DNA from: Tissierellia bacterium
GTDB lineage: Bacteria; Bacillota; Clostridia; Tissierellales; Sedimentibacteraceae
Assembly: GCA_012843025.1 (NCBI GenBank)
Contig: DURT01000009.1
Location: 1 to 56,178 of the forward strand
Reading direction: 5' to 3'
Length of the DNA stretch: 56,178 nucleotides
The notes under the pieces are model-generated. The model did no database searches. It was not told the DNA's origin and worked only from the letters and a program-made list of their open reading frames with translations. The translations under genes and the position numbers were made by a program. Positions 12,728 to 22,539 of the stretch are shown one piece after another. The stretch's first letter is position 1. The number at the start of each line of letters is the position of its first letter.

Positions 12728-13867
12728 ATGAATTTTCAATTGAGCAAAGAACATGAAATGGCAAGAGAGTTGTTCAGATCATTTGCTGTTAACGAAGTAG
12801 AGCCATTAGCACAGGAAATTGATGAAGAAGAAAGGTTCCCGATTGAAACTGTAGAAAAAATGAAAAAATATGGTTTTATGGGTATACCCTTTCCAAAAGA
12901 ATACGGCGGACAAGGCTGTGATTATTTAACGTATGCTATGGCAGTAGAGGAGTTGTCCAAGGTTTGTGCAACTACAGGTGTTATAGTTTCTGCACATACT
13001 TCACTATGTGGAGGTCCTTTACTACAATTTGGTACGGAAGAGCAGAAAAAGAAATATTTGACTAAGGTTGCTTCAGGAGAATGGATAGGAGCTTTCGGTC
13101 TTACAGAACCAGGAGCTGGAACAGATGCTGCAGGTCAACAAACAAAGGCAGTCCTTGACGGCGATAACTATATACTTAATGGTACAAAAATATTTATAAC
13201 AAACGGCGGATATGCAGATTGCTACATAGTAATGGCTATGACTGACAAATCAAAAGGAACTAAAGGAATATCTGCATTTATAGTAGAGAAAGATTTCCCT
13301 GGTTTTTCTATTGGAAAGATAGAAGCAAAAATGGGTATCAGAGGTTCTTCTACAGCTGAGTTAGTTTTCGAAGACTGTGTAGTGCCTAAAGAAAACCTAC
13401 TTGGAAAAGAAGGACAAGGCTTTAAAATTGCTATGCAGACTTTAGATGCGGGAAGAATTGGAATTGCAGCTCAAGCTCTTGGAATAGCACAAGGTGCCAT
13501 AGATGAAACTGTGAAATACGTTAAAGAAAGAAAACAGTTTGGAAGAGCAATTGCTAAATTCCAAAACACACAATTCCAGTTGGCGGATATGCAGGCTAAG
13601 GTAGATGCAGCAAGATTATTAGTTTACAGAGCTGCATGCAATAAGGATGCTGGAAAGCCATTTGGTGTAGATGCAGCAATGGCTAAATTATTTGCAGCGG
13701 AAACAGCAATGGAAGTTACTACTAAGGCTGTTCAGCTTCATGGAGGATACGGATACACCAGAGATTATCCCGTTGAAAGAATGATGAGAGATGCAAAGAT
13801 AACAGAAATCTATGAAGGAACTTCAGAAGTTCAAAGAATGGTTATCAGTGCAAGTATGTTGAGATAG
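12728..13867 (+). CDS. bcd: Butyryl-CoA (short-chain acyl-CoA) dehydrogenase
   Basis: The 379-residue flavoenzyme has the acyl-CoA dehydrogenase signatures [13 protein letters not shown] (about residues 123-135) and [23 protein letters not shown]. The catalytic base Glu lies in [14 protein letters not shown] near the C-terminus. It reduces crotonyl-CoA to butyryl-CoA. Directly downstream etfB and etfA encode its electron-transferring partner; in Clostridia the Bcd-EtfAB complex couples this step to ferredoxin reduction by electron bifurcation. The 112-base gap after crt holds no obvious terminator, so the genes are probably cotranscribed. Confidence 0.95.
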
Positions 13868-13880
13868 GGAGGCTAAGACA

Positions 13881-14663
13881 GTGAATATAATCGTATGTAT
13901 AAAACAGGTACCTGATACAACAGAGGTTAGAATAGATCCAAAAACTAATACATTAATAAGAGAAGGCGTGCCCAGCATAATAAATCCTGACGACAAGGCA
14001 GGTCTTGAAGCTGCACTAAGATTGAAAGATGAATACGGAGCTCATGTAACAGTTTTAACCATGGGTATTCCTGCTGCAGAAGTTGCACTAAGAGAAGCAT
14101 TGGCAATGGGTGCAGACGAAGCAATTCTTATTACAGACAGAGCATTTGGAGGAGCAGATACATTAGCAACTTCAACAACAATTGCTGCTGCAATAAAAAA
14201 TCTGAAGTATGATTTAATTATAACTGGACGACAGGCAATAGATGGAGATACTGCCCAAGTAGGACCTCAAATATCAGAACACCTAAACTTGGTAAATATA
14301 AGCTATGCAGAAGAAATAAAAATAGAAGGTGACTACATTACTGTTAAAAGACAGTATGAAGATAGATACCACACTTTAAAAACTAAATTACCATGCTTAA
14401 TAACAGCTTTATCAGAATTAAATGAACCCCGCTACATGACACCTAGAGGAATTTTCGAAGCATATAGAGATAAAGAAGTTAAAGTTTGGAACTTAAAAGA
14501 TGTTGATGTTGATCCAGAATGTATAGGTTTAAAAGGCTCTCCTACTAAGGTTATAAAATCATTCACCAAGGGTGCTAAGAGCGCAGGTAAAGTATTTAAC
14601 TTAGACCCACAAGAATCAGCTGAACTGATAGTTGAAAAAATGAAAGAAAAATTTATTATTTAG
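13881..14663 (+). CDS. etfB: Electron transfer flavoprotein beta subunit
   Basis: This 260-residue protein begins MNIIVCIKQVPDT (GTG start after GGGAGGCTAAGACA). It carries GRQAIDGDTAQVGPQ, the flavin-binding loop characteristic of bifurcating EtfB proteins, near residues 117-131. It pairs with EtfA to pass electrons to Bcd. It sits 13 bases after bcd and 15 before etfA, so this is one transcription unit. Confidence 0.96.
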   Translation: MNIIVCIKQVPDTTEVRIDPKTNTLIREGVPSIINPDDKAGLEAALRLKDEYGAHVTVLTMGIPAAEVALREALAMGADEAILITDRAFGGADTLATSTTIAAAIKNLKYDLIITGRQAIDGDTAQVGPQISEHLNLVNISYAEEIKIEGDYITVKRQYEDRYHTLKTKLPCLITALSELNEPRYMTPRGIFEAYRDKEVKVWNLKDVDVDPECIGLKGSPTKVIKSFTKGAKSAGKVFNLDPQESAELIVEKMKEKFII

Positions 14664-14678
14664 TAGGAGGAGGACAAT

Positions 14679-15710
14679 ATGAATATTGCAGAATATAAAG
14701 GCATCTTTGTTTTTGCAGAACAAAGAGATCGAAAAGTACAAAAAGTAGCTTATGAATTAATAGGCAAAGCAAAAGAATTGGCAAAAGACCTAAACACTAC
14801 AGTAACAGCTGTATTGTTAGGCCATAACATGAAGGAAGAAGCAAAGAAATTATGTTATGCAGGTGCTGATAATGTAATATATGCAGACAACGAATTGTTG
14901 GATGAATACATGACAGAGCCCTATACTTATACATTGCATGAAATAATAATTGAAAAGAAACCTGAAATAGTTCTTTTCGGGGCAACAGCTATAGGCAGAG
15001 ATGTGGCTCCTAGAGTATCTGCAAGATTGAAAACTGGTCTGACTGCAGACTGTACAGGTTTGTCAATCCAACCAGATGATAAAAACGCAGAACAGTTGAA
15101 TTTAGCCATGACAAGACCTGCATTCGGTGGAAACTTAATGGCTACAATCGTAATAGGAAATCACAGACCACAAATGGCTACTGTAAGACCTGGTGTTATG
15201 CAGGCACAAAAATTTTCAGAATCAAATCCAGTGAACATTGAAGAATACAAAATAGATATACCTGCAGACAGGAAAAATGTTGAAATATTAGAAGTAACAA
15301 AAATAATTCAGCAAAGAATGAATATTGAAGATGCAAAAGTATTAGTATCCGGCGGTAGAGGAATGCACGGTCCTGAAAATTATGCAATGCTTGAAGAATT
15401 GGCAGACCTTTTAGGCGGAACAATTTCAGCATCAAGAGCAGCTGTAGATGCAGGCTGGGTTCCAAAAGACAGACAGGTAGGTCAGACAGGAAAGACAGTT
15501 AGACCAAATCTATACATTGCATGCGGTATTTCAGGAGCAATCCAGCACTTAGCAGGTATGGAAGAATCTGATTTCATTATAGCAATTAATAAAGATGAAT
15601 CAGCACCCATATTTGAAGTGGCAGATGTTGGTATAGTAGGAGACATATTCAAGGTAGTTCCCTTATTAATAGAAGAACTTAAAAAAGAACAAGCAGCTAA
15701 AATTCAATAA
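14679..15710 (+). CDS. etfA: Electron transfer flavoprotein alpha subunit
   Basis: The 343-residue protein has the alpha-subunit FAD signature near residues 225-290: SGGRGMHGPENYAML, then SRAAVDAGWVPKDRQVGQTG and LYIACGISGAIQHLAGM. With EtfB and Bcd it forms the crotonyl-CoA-reducing, ferredoxin-linked complex. It is the last gene before a strong hairpin terminator. Confidence 0.96.
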   Translation: MNIAEYKGIFVFAEQRDRKVQKVAYELIGKAKELAKDLNTTVTAVLLGHNMKEEAKKLCYAGADNVIYADNELLDEYMTEPYTYTLHEIIIEKKPEIVLFGATAIGRDVAPRVSARLKTGLTADCTGLSIQPDDKNAEQLNLAMTRPAFGGNLMATIVIGNHRPQMATVRPGVMQAQKFSESNPVNIEEYKIDIPADRKNVEILEVTKIIQQRMNIEDAKVLVSGGRGMHGPENYAMLEELADLLGGTISASRAAVDAGWVPKDRQVGQTGKTVRPNLYIACGISGAIQHLAGMEESDFIIAINKDESAPIFEVADVGIVGDIFKVVPLLIEELKKEQAAKIQ

Positions 15711-16273: not shown

Positions 16274-16302
16274 AAAAAAAGCCCCTTAAAAGATTAAGGG
16301 GT
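16274..16302 (-). terminator. Terminator of the carboxypeptidase-regulatory-like gene
   Basis: On the minus strand CCCCTTAA, a TCTT loop and TTAAGGGG are followed by C and seven T. The left arm overlaps the stop codon of the gene it ends. Confidence 0.85.
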
Positions 16303-16815
16303 TAAAACATCTCTTGGATGAGGAGGAATATCTAATCTCTCCTCTATGACAGGTTCTCTTTGGATTTCTGAAACTGGAAGCATTGCTATTTCAAAGTCCA
16401 CTGTTGTACCGGGAAATATACGAATATTGTACACAACATTGGCAAAATATCCGGAAGCATCTACCCTAAGATTATAAGTCGAAAAATCATACATAGGTCC
16501 AACTATTTGTGTTCCTAAATCAGAAGCTATGGGTAGTTCCACTGTTACAGGACTTATAGTTGTAAATATGTGCATAATTGGAATGTCTCTTTGCATTCCA
16601 TCTGTTACATAAATTGTTATAGAGGAAGATTCTATGGGAGCTCTGGTAACTTCGTCTATTACATTAATTCTTATGAACCCAGTATTACCTGAATTTCTCA
16701 TCATATACGCATTATACGCAGGATATACGCTTTTAAAAGAAAATAGATCATTACACTTATTTACACGATAAGGTCTCATGTAAAAATTGAATTGGTTGGG
16801 ATATATATTTTTCAT
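16294..16815 (-). CDS. Hypothetical protein with carboxypeptidase-regulatory-like beta domain
   Basis: The reading frame is open from 16944, but AGAAAGGAAATATAAA directly before the ATG at 16815 marks the real start (173 residues). Residues about 45-150 look like a beta-sandwich carboxypeptidase-regulatory domain (GFIRINVIDEVTRAPI, then YNLRVDASGYFANVV and IFPGTTVDFEIAMLP). From memory, a similar domain opens several clostridial spore-cortex or peptidoglycan-binding proteins. That resemblance and the neighbouring SASP gene suggest a spore-envelope role, which is inference. No signal peptide or enzymatic motif is visible. Confidence 0.6.
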   Translation of the reverse strand: MKNIYPNQFNFYMRPYRVNKCNDLFSFKSVYPAYNAYMMRNSGNTGFIRINVIDEVTRAPIESSSITIYVTDGMQRDIPIMHIFTTISPVTVELPIASDLGTQIVGPMYDFSTYNLRVDASGYFANVVYNIRIFPGTTVDFEIAMLPVSEIQREPVIEERLDIPPHPRDVLTP

Positions 16816-16979
16816 TTTATATTTCCTTTCTATAACTGAATAATATATTCTTATTATATGCGCAATAATCGTTTTGTCTTTATAATAGGTAAATTTCCCC
16901 AGAGGAGATGGCCGGGAATTTGTATGTTTTGTGGAAGTAGTCAAAAAGAAAGAGGTCAGCGAACCTGACCCCTGCGATA

Positions 16980-18362
16980 CTACGTATTAATACTGTATTT
17001 CTTAATTTTATTATATAGACTACTTCGATCTATTTTCAACAATTTGGCTGCTGCTGATTTATTGCCCTTAGTTTCAGCTAAGGCCTTAATTATTCTGTCT
17101 TTTTCTACTTCACTTGTAATATCATTAAGAGAATCATTATCAGTAACAAGTTTTTTCTTGTTTTTATCTTTATACATTCTTGATAATAGAAAGTCAAAAT
17201 GCTCAACTTTTAATTGGCCAGAACCTGCTGATATACATGCCCTTTCAAGGACATGCATCAGCTCTCTTACATTTCCTCTCCATTCGTGATTATAGAAAAG
17301 TGAATATACATCCTTGCTGACATCAGCAATACCCAAGCCGTTTTCCTCGTTGATTTTATCTATAAAATGTTTGCATAGTAAGGGTATATCTTCTAAACGT
17401 TCACGTAGAGGAGGGATGTGAATTTCCACCACATTGATACGATAGTACAAATCTCGCCTGAATTTGCCTTCTTTAATAAGTTCCTCTAAGTTTTGATTTG
17501 TACTGCAAATAATTCGCACATCTAATTTTATTGGCTCTAGCCCTCCCACCCGTTCTAATTCGTTTTCCTGTAACACTCTTAGTAGTTTTGACTGTAAGTT
17601 TAAAGGCATTTCGCCGATTTCATCCAAGAGCAAGGTACCGCCATTTGCATGTTCAAATTTCCCGACTTTTCCTTCTTTTAGAGCTCCTGAAAAGGACCCC
17701 GGTTCATAACCGAACAATTCAGATTCTAATAGGTCTTTAGGAATTGCGGCACAGTTTATTTTTACAAAATTATTATTTCTTCTTTTACTTAATGCATGTA
17801 TGGCATTTGCGAAAACTTCCTTACCGGTACCTGTTTCTCCTGTAATTAGAAAGGTTAAATCAGATTCTGCAAATCTCTGAATAGTTTCCTTAATAGCCAT
17901 AATAGGTAGAGAATCACCAATTATGCTCCTTATGGAGTAGCGTTTAGTAGATAATTCTGATAATTGTTTTTTATAATTTAGATTTTCCTCTTGTAATTTT
18001 TTGATTTGCTGGTTTAGTATGGATACTTCGTCTAATTTATAGAAGGTGGCAGAGCTTATAACACCTATCACTTTGTTATTGTCAATGATGGGAATTCTAT
18101 TACAAACTACTGTTTTTCCATCCTTAAGAGTGAAAAGATGACCTATATCCTCTTTTTTAGTATCTAATACATGAGGTATTTCTGAATTAGGGATAATATC
18201 ACGAACGTGTTTTCCTATATATTCTTCATCAGTAACGCCTAATAACTCTTGGTAATTCTCACTTAGTAGTATAATTCGTCCTTCATTGTCCGTTATTACT
18301 GCATAATACAAGGACCTTAAAATTCTATAATAGAAATCATTTTTCAGAATGTTTCTTATCAC
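16980..18362 (-). CDS. Sigma-54-dependent transcriptional activator (PAS-AAA+-Fis)
   Basis: This 460-residue enhancer-binding protein has an N-terminal PAS sensor (about 10-110), a short coiled coil (112-138), an AAA+ domain (about 142-370) and a Fis-type helix-turn-helix (about 420-457, NKSAAAKLLKIDRSSLYNKI). Walker A is GETGTGKE at 175-182 and Walker B is GGTLLLDEIGE. The sigma-54-contacting loop reads GSFSGA at 222-227 instead of GAFTGA. The GTG start follows GAGGAGGATATAG. It is the third gene of the minus arm of a cluster driven by two divergent sigma-54 promoters, which it very probably activates; the PAS domain would sense the substrate. Confidence 0.93.
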   Translation of the reverse strand: MIRNILKNDFYYRILRSLYYAVITDNEGRIILLSENYQELLGVTDEEYIGKHVRDIIPNSEIPHVLDTKKEDIGHLFTLKDGKTVVCNRIPIIDNNKVIGVISSATFYKLDEVSILNQQIKKLQEENLNYKKQLSELSTKRYSIRSIIGDSLPIMAIKETIQRFAESDLTFLITGETGTGKEVFANAIHALSKRRNNNFVKINCAAIPKDLLESELFGYEPGSFSGALKEGKVGKFEHANGGTLLLDEIGEMPLNLQSKLLRVLQENELERVGGLEPIKLDVRIICSTNQNLEELIKEGKFRRDLYYRINVVEIHIPPLRERLEDIPLLCKHFIDKINEENGLGIADVSKDVYSLFYNHEWRGNVRELMHVLERACISAGSGQLKVEHFDFLLSRMYKDKNKKKLVTDNDSLNDITSEVEKDRIIKALAETKGNKSAAAKLLKIDRSSLYNKIKKYSINT

Positions 18363-18432
18363 CTATATCCTCCTCTAGGAACTTGTAACAATTACATATA
18401 TTATAACAGTAAAAACTAAAACTGCAAACTAA

Positions 18433-18858
18433 TTAATAACCAACCCTTGGCGGCAAAACAACAGCCTCTCCCTTTGTTACTTCAATTCCATCTTGGTTAG
18501 TGCATAAGGTGGTAAGCACTACTCTATTTCTGTCTTTAATTATTTCTTTAATTTCTACTGTCGAGGTAATAGTGTCGCCGAAATAAACTGGAGCTAAAAA
18601 GTTTAATGTTTGGGATTCATATATTGTTCCAGGTCCCGGAAGTTGTACTCCGATAACTGCAGATATTAAAGCAGCTGATAAAATGCCATGGGCTATTCTG
18701 CGCTTAAAATAAGTATTTTTAGCATATTCTTCATTTATATGGGCAGGGTTGATATCACCGCTTATACCTGCAAATAAATAAACATCAGTTTCAGTAATGG
18801 ATTTAGTAAAGGATGCTTTTTGTCCTACCTTCAAATTTTCAATTGAAAATCCTATCAT
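18433..18858 (-). CDS. MaoC-family (R)-specific enoyl-CoA hydratase
   Basis: The 141-residue hot-dog-fold protein has the catalytic dyad of the family, Asp35 and His40 (AGISGDINPAH), followed by AHGILSAALISAVIG. These are the hallmarks of PhaJ-type hydratases that interconvert trans-2-enoyl-CoA and (R)-3-hydroxyacyl-CoA. It lies between the BKACE gene and the sigma-54 activator, so the hydratase probably handles the acyl-CoA released by BKACE or a related thioester. A hairpin separates it from the BKACE gene. Confidence 0.88.
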   Translation of the reverse strand: MIGFSIENLKVGQKASFTKSITETDVYLFAGISGDINPAHINEEYAKNTYFKRRIAHGILSAALISAVIGVQLPGPGTIYESQTLNFLAPVYFGDTITSTVEIKEIIKDRNRVVLTTLCTNQDGIEVTKGEAVVLPPRVGY

Positions 18859-18881: not shown

Positions 18882-18911
18882 ACTCCCCCCACCTTTATTG
18901 GTGGTGGGAGT
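18882..18911 (-). terminator. Intra-operon hairpin between BKACE and maoC
   Basis: On the minus strand a stem of 12 positions with one mismatch (18900-18911 with 18882-18893, six-base loop) is followed by TTTTC. It is GC-rich and would act as a partial terminator or 3'-end stabiliser, giving more BKACE than downstream message. Confidence 0.6.
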
Positions 18912-18915
18912 AGTC

Positions 18916-19764
18916 TTAAAATACTTTTCTTGTCAATCCAAATATTTGTCTTGCTTCATCGGGAGTAGCAACTTCTAAGTCTGCTTCCTCGATAAGTCTT
19001 TTTGCTCTTGCAACAAATTGAGCATTAGAATCTGCAAGAACACCTTTCTTATAATAAACATTGTCTTCCATACCTACACGGAGATGGCCCCCCATTGCAA
19101 TAGTTGCATACATTATGGGCAAGTGAGCTTTACCGATTCCACATGCTGCCCAAGTCGAACCTTCTGGAATTAAGCTCTTTAGAAAGACTAAGTTTTCTAT
19201 TGTTGCTGGAAGACCTCCCGGAGCTCCTAAAACAAATTGGAAATGTAAGGGTGCCTTTAGAATACCCTTGTTTAGATAATATAAGGCGTTATGAACCATA
19301 CCACCATCAAAGATTTCAATTTCTGGTTTAATGTTTGATTCTAAAAGTGCAAGACCTAATTTTTCCAAGAATCTTGGATGATTCTCAAATATAGTCCTAT
19401 GCATCCAGTTCATTGTTCCTGCATCATAGGATGCCATTTCAGGCAAGAGTTGCTGAAGGGGATATATTCTTTCTTCATCGCCAAAACCTACACTTCCTGA
19501 ACTAGTTATGTTGATGCAAACGTCACAATCCTTTTTAGCTCTGATTAATTCAACTGTTTCCTTATATTTTTCATAGTCTGTTGAAGGTGTACCATCATCA
19601 TTACGTACATGTATATGCACTATTGCTGCTCCAGCCTTCCATGCTTCATAGGCATCATCTGCAATCTCCTGAGGTGTGATCGATAGGTTAGGATTATCTT
19701 CTCTTGTTGGCCATGAGCCTGTAATAGCACAAGATATTACTCTTTTTCTTTTTAATTTGTCCAT
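18916..19764 (-). CDS. BKACE-family beta-keto acid cleavage enzyme
   Basis: BKACE enzymes condense a beta-keto acid with acetyl-CoA and release acetoacetate plus a new acyl-CoA. This 282-residue TIM-barrel protein has the zinc ligands His50 and His52 (VHIHVR), Glu233 and the catalytic Arg229 and Asp234 (HLRVGMEDN). At the position of Glu14 of the lysine-pathway enzyme Kce, remembered as contacting the substrate amino group, this protein has Trp18 (ITGSWPT). A 3-keto-5-aminohexanoate substrate is therefore unlikely. The ATG at 19764 follows GGAGGAAAAA; an ATG four codons earlier overlaps that ribosome site and is rejected. First gene behind a sigma-54 promoter. Confidence 0.9.
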   Translation of the reverse strand: MDKLKRKRVISCAITGSWPTREDNPNLSITPQEIADDAYEAWKAGAAIVHIHVRNDDGTPSTDYEKYKETVELIRAKKDCDVCINITSSGSVGFGDEERIYPLQQLLPEMASYDAGTMNWMHRTIFENHPRFLEKLGLALLESNIKPEIEIFDGGMVHNALYYLNKGILKAPLHFQFVLGAPGGLPATIENLVFLKSLIPEGSTWAACGIGKAHLPIMYATIAMGGHLRVGMEDNVYYKKGVLADSNAQFVARAKRLIEEADLEVATPDEARQIFGLTRKVF

Positions 19765-19805
19765 TTTTTCCTCCATAAATATAGTTTTGCTTACTTAATA
19801 TAATA

Positions 19806-19821
19806 GCAATACATGTGCCAA
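19806..19821 (-). promoter_or_regulatory. Sigma-54 promoter for the BKACE operon
   Basis: On the minus strand TTGGCAC-ATGTA-TTGCT matches the -24/-12 consensus exactly, with GG and GC twelve bases apart. The predicted start, about 12 bases past the -12 GC, leaves a leader of about 30 bases before the BKACE ATG. Confidence 0.9.
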
Positions 19822-19893
19822 GTTTATATAGTCTATAATATGTTTGAAATCAGCGAAACTAAGAAATATATAATAAAAAATTAGCACAAAAAT

Positions 19894-20012
19894 TGTAGAA
19901 AAATTAATCACAAAGCACAGATTAATGTAGAAATTTTCTACATTAATTAAATTTAAGCCATTTGTAAGCCTTGTAGAAAATCTAAACAATATTCGCTTGC
20001 TAAGTGTAGAAA
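19894..20012. promoter_or_regulatory. Four TGTAGAAA enhancer (UAS) sites between divergent sigma-54 promoters
   Basis: TGTAGAAA occurs at 19894, 19926, 19972 and 20005, always on the plus strand. The second copy is the left arm of a perfect 27-base palindrome at 19921-19947 (core TGTAGAAATTTTCTACA). The third has a weaker inverted partner (TCTAAACA). The spacings of 32, 46 and 33 bases are roughly three to four helical turns. They lie about 65-190 bases from both -24 elements, the normal range for enhancer-binding proteins. The product of the gene at 16980-18362 is the obvious candidate to bind. Confidence 0.75.
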
Positions 20013-20071
20013 CCAACAACACCAAGCATAAGCTTTTTTATAAAAACCATGGAAATTGCTCATTAATTTTC

Positions 20072-20088
20072 TTGGCACACTATTTGCT
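20072..20088 (+). promoter_or_regulatory. Sigma-54 promoter for the PanE-like/GntP operon
   Basis: TTGGCAC-ACTAT-TTGCT is a full -24/-12 match with GG at 20074-20075 and GC at 20086-20087. The expected start near 20098 lies about 29 bases before the ATG at 20127. Confidence 0.92.
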
Positions 20089-20126
20089 TTATATTTAAGC
20101 ACACAATATTTTTAGGAGGTTTCATA

Positions 20127-21152
20127 ATGAAAATAGCAATTTATGGTTGTGGTGCAATGGGTACTGTTTTAGGGGCTTACCTAAACAAAAATGGTCTTGA
20201 AGTTACATTAATTGATAACTATGTCGATCATGTAAATGCATTAAATGAAAAAGGAGCACGCATAATAGGATGTGCTGATCTTACCGTACCTGTAAAGGCA
20301 ATTACACCAGATCAAATGGAAGGAAAGTATGATTTAATTTTTCTTTTTACGAAACAAACGGCAAATGCAGAAGCACTTCCTCATATTAAACAGTTTCTTA
20401 ATGATGACAGCATAGTTTGTACATTGCAAAATGGTGTTCCTGAATATAGTGTTGAAGAATATATAGGGGGAAACAGAACAGTAGGCGGAACTGTTCTTTG
20501 GGGAGCAACTTTTATCAGTCCAGGAGTATCTGAGGTTACTCAAGACGTTACTTCAGGAGATATTTTGTTTGATATAGGAGAAATAAGAGGGGGAATTACA
20601 GAACGAATAAAAAAAGTTGCTCAAGTTCTTGAATATATGGGTCCTGTTACTATAGTAGAGAACTTAATGGGAGCACGTTGGTCTAAACTCTTGCTTAACA
20701 GCTGCATGAGTGGAATGTCAGCAGCTATGGGTTCTATTTTTGGAGACATTTTAGATAATCCAAAGGCAAGTGCTTGTTTAAGTTATATTGCAAGTGATAT
20801 CATAAATGTTTGTGAAAAGGCAAAGGTTGATTTAGAAGGTGTTATGGGAATGGAAATGGTGGACTTTGGTAAAGTTGACACTAAGGAAGATTTTGAAAAA
20901 TCTCAAAATTGTTTTAGAAAGTTCTATGCTGATAAATTAACAGCTAAGGCAAGTATGCTTCAAGATTTGGAAAAAGGTAAGAAGACAGAAGTTGAGATGA
21001 TAAATGGATTTGTTGTGGACCAGGGTAAAAAATATGGAGTTCCAACACCTTATAATGATATAGTTGTTAAAATTATCAAAGGTATAGAAAATAAGGAATT
21101 ACCATTAAGTATGGATAATCTAAAATTCTTTGAATTGCCAGAGTTTAATTAA
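20127..21152 (+). CDS. PanE/ApbA-family 2-dehydropantoate 2-reductase-like protein
   Basis: The 341-residue protein has the N-terminal NADP-binding Rossmann motif IYGCGAMGTVLGAYL and the ApbA C-terminal helical domain. A conserved lysine (ARWSKLLLNSCM, about residue 192) is the likely catalytic general acid. True PanE reduces ketopantoate in CoA synthesis, but this copy is induced by a sigma-54 promoter, coupled to a GntP-type permease and divergent from a BKACE gene. A catabolic 2- or 3-hydroxy acid dehydrogenase working on the imported substrate is more likely. AGGAGGTTTCATA precedes the ATG. Confidence 0.82.
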   Translation: MKIAIYGCGAMGTVLGAYLNKNGLEVTLIDNYVDHVNALNEKGARIIGCADLTVPVKAITPDQMEGKYDLIFLFTKQTANAEALPHIKQFLNDDSIVCTLQNGVPEYSVEEYIGGNRTVGGTVLWGATFISPGVSEVTQDVTSGDILFDIGEIRGGITERIKKVAQVLEYMGPVTIVENLMGARWSKLLLNSCMSGMSAAMGSIFGDILDNPKASACLSYIASDIINVCEKAKVDLEGVMGMEMVDFGKVDTKEDFEKSQNCFRKFYADKLTAKASMLQDLEKGKKTEVEMINGFVVDQGKKYGVPTPYNDIVVKIIKGIENKELPLSMDNLKFFELPEFN

Positions 21153-21216: not shown

Positions 21217-22539
21217 ATGAACACATTTGCTATAATAGGACTTATTTTAGCTGTATTGGTACTGGGTGTTGCAGCTTACAAAGGCTGGGGAGCTCTTACT
21301 TCAACTTTATTAGCGTCTTTAGTAGTTATTCTTACAAGTGGGATGAATATATGGGAAGGCTTTTCAAACTTTTATATGCAAGGTTATACAGGAGCCTATG
21401 CAAGTTTCTTCCTGATGTTCTGTTGCTCAAGTTTGTATGCTAACTTCATGAATGTTTCTGGTAGTGCAACTTCTATTGCATATCAGTTTATTGATTGGTT
21501 CGGAAGGCAGAAAGTACTACTGGTATGTTTTGTAATAACTTTAGTGTTAACTTACGGGGGAGTAAGTCTCTTTGTTGTTGTATATGCAATGGCGCCTATT
21601 ATGTTTACACTTTTTAAAGAAGCAAACTTACCAAGACATTTAACAATGGCTATAATTATTGCCGGTTCAGCTTCATTATCGATGACTGCTCTTCCAGGCA
21701 CACCAGCACTTACTAACGTTATACCTACTCAATTTTTAGGAACAACATTAACTGCAGCTCCCATTTATGGAATAATCGCATCAATAGCATTTTTCGTCAT
21801 GATCGTATTTTATTTGAATTACTGCGAAAAGAAGGCAAGAGCTAATAATGAATACTGGACCTATCCAGAAGGTGTAGATCCTTCAAAATATGAAATTCAG
21901 GATCGTAGTCTGCTACCATCATCAATAAAAGCATTTTTACCCATGATAATATTAATGACAATCATAATAGTAGGAAGCAGATTAGGACTTAATTCTACAA
22001 TGCTTGCTACTGGTGCAATGTTAGCTGGTACCTTGACTGTATTTGTTTTAAACATTGATAAGTTTAAGGGACAAGATATGAAAAAAATTATATCAACTGG
22101 CTTAGAAGGCGGTATAGGTGGTATAGGCGGCTATGCAGGAGTTGTTGCTTTCGGATCAGTAGTATCAAATTCAGAAGCATTTACTTCAATAGTTGACTGG
22201 GTTCTAAGTATGCAAATGAATCCATATGCACAGGGAGCATTTGCTACCATGGTGGTATCTGCAGTAACAGGATCCTCCTCTGGCGGATTAAGAATCATGT
22301 TTACTGCATTTGCCGATGGATTTTTAACATCTGGTGCAAACTTAGAGTTATTGCATCGTTTGGTAAGTATAGCGGCAGGTGCTTTGGATACCTTACCACA
22401 TTCACCAGGATTATTCCTGATGTTTGCAGTACTGGGTCTTACTCACAAAGAAGCATATAAACATGTATTCTGGACAACAGTGGTAATACCGACAATTATT
22501 ACATTGGTATCTTTGGCAGTATTTATAATGTTCTTCTAA
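21217..22539 (+). CDS. GntP-type organic acid permease
   Basis: This 440-residue membrane protein has about twelve hydrophobic segments. Motifs include SASLSMTALPGTPALTNVIP and SAVTGSSSGGLRIMFTAFAD, and near the end GALDTLPHSPGLFLMFAVLG. This is the pattern of the GntP family, which imports gluconate, 3-hydroxybutyrate and other hydroxy or keto acids by cation symport. It is the second gene of the sigma-54 operon, 64 bases after the PanE-like reductase gene, and is followed by a terminator. Context points to a short hydroxy or keto acid as substrate. Confidence 0.85.
   Translation: MNTFAIIGLILAVLVLGVAAYKGWGALTSTLLASLVVILTSGMNIWEGFSNFYMQGYTGAYASFFLMFCCSSLYANFMNVSGSATSIAYQFIDWFGRQKVLLVCFVITLVLTYGGVSLFVVVYAMAPIMFTLFKEANLPRHLTMAIIIAGSASLSMTALPGTPALTNVIPTQFLGTTLTAAPIYGIIASIAFFVMIVFYLNYCEKKARANNEYWTYPEGVDPSKYEIQDRSLLPSSIKAFLPMIILMTIIIVGSRLGLNSTMLATGAMLAGTLTVFVLNIDKFKGQDMKKIISTGLEGGIGGIGGYAGVVAFGSVVSNSEAFTSIVDWVLSMQMNPYAQGAFATMVVSAVTGSSSGGLRIMFTAFADGFLTSGANLELLHRLVSIAAGALDTLPHSPGLFLMFAVLGLTHKEAYKHVFWTTVVIPTIITLVSLAVFIMFF

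Follow-up and report, generated by a model that had tools for sequence, protein, structure and literature searches.

Paired putative activator sites in a predicted bidirectional sigma-54 control region at a BKACE locus of Tissierellia

A DNA stretch of 56,178 nucleotides (the window; contig DURT01000009.1 of the Tissierellia bacterium assembly GCA_012843025.1) was analysed. Between a gene for a beta-keto acid cleavage enzyme (BKACE) and a divergent gene for a ketopantoate reductase-like dehydrogenase, two outward-facing sigma-54 promoters flank four 17-bp sites arranged as two pairs. Judged from its sequence, this region is very probably a bidirectional, enhancer-driven sigma-54 control region run by the locally encoded activator.

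Divergent promoters and the genes of the two arms

Two -24/-12 elements were located, both TTGGCAC-N5-TTGCT with 0 mismatches and both pointing outward: TTGGCACATGTATTGCT on the minus strand at 19805-19821, in front of the BKACE-MaoC(-EBP) arm, and TTGGCACACTATTTGCT on the plus strand at 20072-20088, in front of the ApbA/PanE-like-permease arm. Each has the GG at -24, the GC at -12 and the fixed spacing of sigma-54 promoters. Both had been proposed in the initial annotation, with the minus element placed one base off (at 19806), and both are real. Scans of the organism's own genome (2.2 Mb), which were pattern-based only, gave three exact matches to TTGGCAC-N5-TTGCT, two of them being the window promoters, and 19 matches with at most one mismatch vs two for the reversed control pattern. 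Absence of rpoN, named beforehand as evidence against such promoters, was looked for; the sigma-54 gene is encoded in the genome (PF04552, E 1.9e-64). The two outward elements are kept in all 10 intergenic regions examined, the window included. Transcription starts were placed at about 19794 (minus promoter) and about 20099 (plus promoter); these are positions set from the -12 GC, not measured ends, and all site distances count from them.

The BKACE gene occupies 18916-19776 on the minus strand (Pfam PF05853, 4.7e-105; alignment to 2y7d). Its first ATG (19776) overlaps the ribosome-binding sequence GGAGG, so translation probably starts at the ATG at 19764, and both predicted leaders are then about 28-30 nt long. 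It is followed on the same strand by a gene for a MaoC-type (R)-specific enoyl-CoA hydratase (18433-18858; PF01575), whose nearest solved structures, 5cpg and 1iq6, are (R)-specific enoyl-CoA hydratases. The plus-strand arm consists of the ketopantoate reductase-like (ApbA/PanE) dehydrogenase (20127-21152; PF02558/PF08546) and a permease (21217-22539). The permease has no significant Pfam match of its own; it is probably GntP/CitMHS-like according to its homologues, one of which scores above the GntP_permease cut-off while the others match CitMHS weakly. An acyl-CoA dehydrogenase with EtfBA is encoded at 12728-15710 of the window. In three related loci (L066, L067 and L068) an acyl-CoA dehydrogenase gene is the next one after the permease; EtfBA comes after it in L068, the locus whose contig extends that far.

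Predicted paired activator sites and their geometry

Five copies of the octamer TGTAGAAA lie between the promoters (plus strand, 19894, 19926, 19972 and 20005; minus strand, 19935-19942), the minus-strand copy being additional to the four counted in the initial annotation. The whole window holds 11 copies vs 3.99 expected from shuffles. The five octamers make up four 17-bp sites, all recovered by a motif model and the first two also in a leave-clade-out test. Pair 1 consists of site 1 (TGTAGAAAAATTAATCA, 19894-19910) and site 2 (TGTAGAAATTTTCTACA, 19926-19942), centred about -108 and -140 from the minus start. Pair 2 consists of site 3 (TGTAGAAAATCTAAACA, 19972-19988) and site 4 (TGTAGAAACCAACAACA, 20005-20021), centred about -119 and -86 from the plus start.

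The motif obtained iteratively from the ten regions is a degenerate 17-bp dyad of the TGT-N11-ACA type, with the approximate consensus TGTAGANAWTNTMWWCA. TG at positions 1-2 and CA at positions 16-17 are nearly invariant, T3 and A15 are present in about 73%, and palindromic matches per site average 4.6 of 8 vs 2.5 for random 17-mers of the same regions. The sites have the form of the TGT-N10-12-ACA enhancer class, being inverted repeats upstream of the promoter with centres at -84 to -152. TGTAGAAA-N-TTTCTACA, previously proposed as the binding motif, describes sites that are conserved and nearly locus-specific, but is only the most symmetric extreme of the dyad, most sites being imperfect. 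The perfect 27-base palindrome reported earlier was found at 19921-19947, around site 2. At its core is the perfect 17-mer TGTAGAAANTTTCTACA, for which the genome has no second copy. The palindrome was ruled out as a special element, since the orthologous loci retain the 17-bp core but not the 27-bp extension.

The centres of paired sites are 32 or 33 bp apart in 10 of 10 regions, one member of one pair (L075) being degenerate. When the motif was learned without the tested clade, the best 32/33 pair of each region was reached by none of 300 dinucleotide shuffles. At the plus promoter (ketopantoate reductase-like arm), all ten regions have a site centred between -84 and -87 and its partner between -117 and -119. 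Distances differ among loci for the pair nearest the minus promoter: four loci have it at about -87/-119 and a fifth at -88/-121, one locus has -97/-130, the window and genomes G020 and G010 have -106 to -109 and -138 to -141, and the second copy of genome G007 has -120/-152. The minus promoter's pair in the window is therefore about 20 bp more distant than in the compact relatives. The distance classes (about 87, 97, 108 and 120 bp) correspond to 0, 0.95, 1.97 and 3.14 turns of 10.5 bp, which for four classes is only suggestive of helical phasing at the minus promoter.

Six relatives have one pair only, equidistant from both promoters in five of the six, and there this pair would have to serve both promoters. 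Four loci (the window, those of G020 and G010, and the second one of G007) have two pairs, one nearer each promoter. The single shared enhancer set of the initial annotation would therefore hold literally only in the six relatives, the window itself having a pair near each promoter. A tree of the neighbouring dehydrogenase implies at least two changes between the one-pair and two-pair states and gives no direction for them.

Conservation, specificity and the activator gene

Nine further loci, from eight genomes of the genus, show a readable divergent arrangement, in most cases with the same neighbouring genes. The left arm opens with BKACE or MaoC across loci; in G015, the BKACE gene is placed behind the activator, and the short contig of the second G007 locus yielded no BKACE. 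Eight other genomes of the genus encode activator orthologues with 65-85% identity. Among them is that of Sedimentibacter saalensis DSM 13558, whose cluster on contig L005 matches the one of G018 (L067). The copy of G010 is internally deleted. The orthologous PAS-AAA+-Fis activator is present in every cluster, two copies being damaged. Site conservation in syntenic loci, whose absence would have counted against the earlier prediction, was clear: the paired sites are kept in every locus. Identity between loci is 67-94% for promoters and sites and 41-79% for the other spacer, a contrast inflated by choosing the site boundaries with the motif itself. All loci come from one genus and are thus not fully independent.

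A scan of 25 genomes of the genus for the pair pattern gave 17 rows vs 3 for the reversed control, and 13 of the 17 fell at these loci. Across 249 genomes of the order, matches outside the genus resembled chance coding matches and were about as many as in the control, so the paired-site rule rests on one genus. A scan of the own genome for single consensus sites, allowing 3 mismatches, was uninformative (157/151 matches vs 160/147 for the control). The best single match elsewhere (G000:C40, L093) was rejected, as it lies within a coding frame with no -24/-12 element near it. One further row of the genus scan lies outside the cluster: a thiolase gene of G007 (L085:1402-1550, contig C2) has an upstream pair 33 bp apart, at -118/-151 of its own TGGCAT-N5-TTGCT element. 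It is likely an extra regulon member, and a thiolase would fit the regulon because BKACE is expected to make acetoacetate.

Paralogous BKACE/PanE-like/permease clusters were seen at L069:3990-4490 and L074:13440-14010, with three sigma-54 elements each, two of them divergent. Neither TGTAGA pairs in these stretches nor pairs of the motif near the promoters were found. The activators of these clusters have the recognition helix RSILYDK vs RSSLYNK in the orthologues. The L069 BKACE scores 405 of 430 bits for 3,5-dioxohexanoate:acetyl-CoA acetone transferase. In L076 and L077, no sigma-54 element was found within the stretches examined.

The activator gene of the window (16980-18362, minus strand) encodes a PAS-AAA+-Fis protein with the features of bacterial enhancer-binding proteins (EBP): PF00158, PF02954, the Walker A sequence GETGTGKE and GSFSGA, a variant of the GAFTGA loop. 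From its Pfam domains and genus orthologues, it is the predicted binder of the sites. Its predicted housekeeping promoter is marked by the extended -10 TGTTATAAT at 18400-18408 (minus strand). TGnTATAAT is present in the gap before the activator gene in all nine loci tested (exact in seven, with one mismatch in two). A terminator-like hairpin stands ahead of the activator in G003-type loci (seen in L066, its sequence kept in L067, L068 and L070). The BKACE-MaoC gap of the window contains a strong hairpin and then TTTT (18882-18911, minus strand; -22.2 kcal/mol, z -4.25), possibly an attenuator or partial terminator inside the arm. Because of its own extended -10 and the preceding hairpins, the activator would have its own expression, to which the sigma-54 arm may add by read-through, and it is probably independent of a sigma-54 loop of its own. 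It does lie downstream in the BKACE arm, as the initial annotation had it, but given its own conserved extended -10, sigma-54 feedback is not required.

Several features around the activator gene were recorded separately. In G010 (L075:8922-9803), the activator is a single open frame of 294 codons that lacks the greater part of the AAA+ domain, through either a real deletion or an assembly error, and promoters and sites are kept. In the second cluster copy of G007 (L071:2090-3416), it is disrupted near the DNA-binding end. The sites persisting beside these two damaged activators could reflect recent decay, assembly error or another binder. Complementary GACCTC...GGAGGT segments, possibly a leader structure, lie ahead of the activator gene in G014 (L072:9090-9220; fold z -3.86) and G015 (L073:8696-9011). 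Downstream of the window activator, a 216-codon frame (16294-16944) has no Pfam or NCBIfam match, and a GC-rich hairpin with a T-rich tail separates the two.

Proposed control and likely substrate

Built on the elements, their conservation, pairing, distances and specificity, a scheme of binding, activation, looping, signal and substrate can be proposed. Sigma-54 RNA polymerase would wait at both outward promoters. Its own housekeeping promoter would supply a low level of the activator, whose dimers would bind the TGT-N11-ACA-type dyads, which are paired three helical turns apart. A signal, probably the substrate or product, would activate the PAS domain; the protein would then oligomerise on a pair and, by DNA looping, open the promoter at a distance of about 85-140 bp. 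Of the window's pairs, pair 2 (19972/20005) would act on the ApbA-permease promoter and pair 1 (19894/19926) on the BKACE-MaoC promoter; in the six relatives the single pair would do both jobs. Both arms would be induced together. Their products would probably import a hydroxy acid and oxidise it, after which BKACE would cleave the 3-keto acid with acetyl-CoA and MaoC would dehydrate the resulting (R)-3-hydroxyacyl-CoA toward the butyrate pathway.

The same sites could be explained with a dedicated pair for each promoter and no sharing, the window then being two ordinary sigma-54 promoters placed back to back. Each pair of the four two-pair loci is at a fitting distance from its promoter, which gives this reading a real chance, if rather short of an even one. 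Against it stand the single-pair relatives, where one pair would have to serve both sides, and the far pairs of the window, which are still less than 250 bp away and within the usual enhancer range. A positive loop of the activator on itself through the minus sigma-54 promoter is suggested by the position of its gene, which in most loci comes after BKACE-MaoC in the same orientation. We consider such a loop unlikely in view of the extended -10 in nine loci, the hairpins ahead of the activator in G003-type loci and the strong hairpin between BKACE and MaoC in the window.

It is very unlikely that the sites are bound by a regulator other than the adjacent activator, such as a repressor or another sigma-54 activator. 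The genome does encode about a dozen sigma-54 activators, and the sites persist in G010 and the second G007 locus despite the damaged adjacent gene. However, the sites accompany this orthologue and are not found in the paralogous clusters with a different recognition helix, the pair pattern is nearly confined to this locus, and paired dyads at -86/-118 are typical of sigma-54 enhancers. Control of both promoters by the adjacent activator is thus the reading retained here.

The gene sets probably break down a hydroxy/keto acid. The nearest solved relative of the window BKACE is Kce of lysine fermentation, in which Glu14 binds the 5-amino group of the substrate; triacetate acetoacetate-lyase (TAL) has Trp at this place (PMC10470551). 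The window enzyme has Trp22 at the position of Glu14, shared with CsTAL, which points to a non-amino substrate. Its scores lie below both NCBIfam cut-offs (331.5 of 382 bits for Kce; 229.9 of 430 bits for TAL, NF053538). Two other BKACE copies of the genome are above the Kce cut-off, one of them adjoining 3,5-diaminohexanoate dehydrogenase. Identity with Kce proper was rejected on the score, on Trp22 and on these two copies. The most economical guess for the substrate, possible rather than probable, is a 5-hydroxy-3-oxo acid, since its cleavage would give acetoacetate and an (R)-3-hydroxyacyl-CoA that could be dehydrated by a MaoC whose nearest solved relatives are (R)-specific. The ketopantoate reductase-like enzyme, if lysine and phloroglucinol fermentation are taken as the analogy, more likely oxidises the hydroxy acid to the keto acid cleaved by BKACE, which makes the 'reduction arm' of the initial annotation doubtful.

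A more comprehensive picture is tentative and, taken as a whole, rather doubtful. In most of the genus, the single equidistant pair would be a strictly symmetric switch; two pairs are present in the window clade and in one of the G007 copies. Shared pairs would have given way to dedicated ones, or the reverse, at least twice, and the spacing would have changed by whole helical turns only. The pathway itself would be the hydroxy analogue of lysine fermentation (3,5-dihydroxyhexanoate to 5-hydroxy-3-oxohexanoate, then to acetoacetate and (R)-3-hydroxybutyryl-CoA, the latter to crotonyl-CoA).

Related systems are known. In E. coli, FhlA controls the divergent sigma-54 operons hyc and hyp through TGT/ACA-type enhancers; these are formate hydrogenlyase genes, and the activator gene is elsewhere in the cluster. 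A reconstruction of Clostridiales sigma-54 regulons described 39 activator groups, fifteen of them with TGT-N10-12-ACA enhancers; multiple sites are frequent, and some of the groups include gntT-bcd-etfAB or maoC operons (PMC6615313). With EBP regulons such as those of CrbR, XcgR, PrdR and AhcR, the present loci share the Fis-type DNA-binding domain, TGT/ACA dyads, several sites per promoter, an activator adjoining its targets and fermentation/butyrate genes (PMC6615313). The strict 32-33 bp site pairs are a feature of the present loci, no BKACE or PanE-like target operon is named for any of the 39 groups, and the main text mentions neither Sedimentibacter nor divergent promoters (PMC6615313). 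The orp system of Desulfovibrio vulgaris likewise has two divergent sigma-54 operons, palindromic sites and a linked activator, DVU2106, with its own sigma-70 promoter, as predicted for the window activator. In the orp system, that promoter overlaps a binding site of the activator, forming a negative loop; it also requires IHF, and its genes have to do with cell division (PMC3897727). Kce and the triacetate acetoacetate-lyase of phloroglucinol degradation carry out the dehydrogenase-fed, BKACE-family cleavage of a 3-keto acid with acetyl-CoA that is also proposed here (PMC10470551); unlike both, the window BKACE is partnered with a MaoC hydratase. TGT-N10-12-ACA enhancers and divergent sigma-54 operons with a linked activator are thus known, and what is new here is the orthologous group, whose geometry is unusually clear.

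To the sigma-54 regulons of fermentative Firmicutes, these loci add a well-defined activator group with a testable predicted site and a strict geometry. They also form a natural series (one shared or two pairs; about 87, 97, 108 and 120 bp) for the study of enhancer sharing between divergent promoters, and they point to a BKACE pathway with a putative, probably non-amino substrate.
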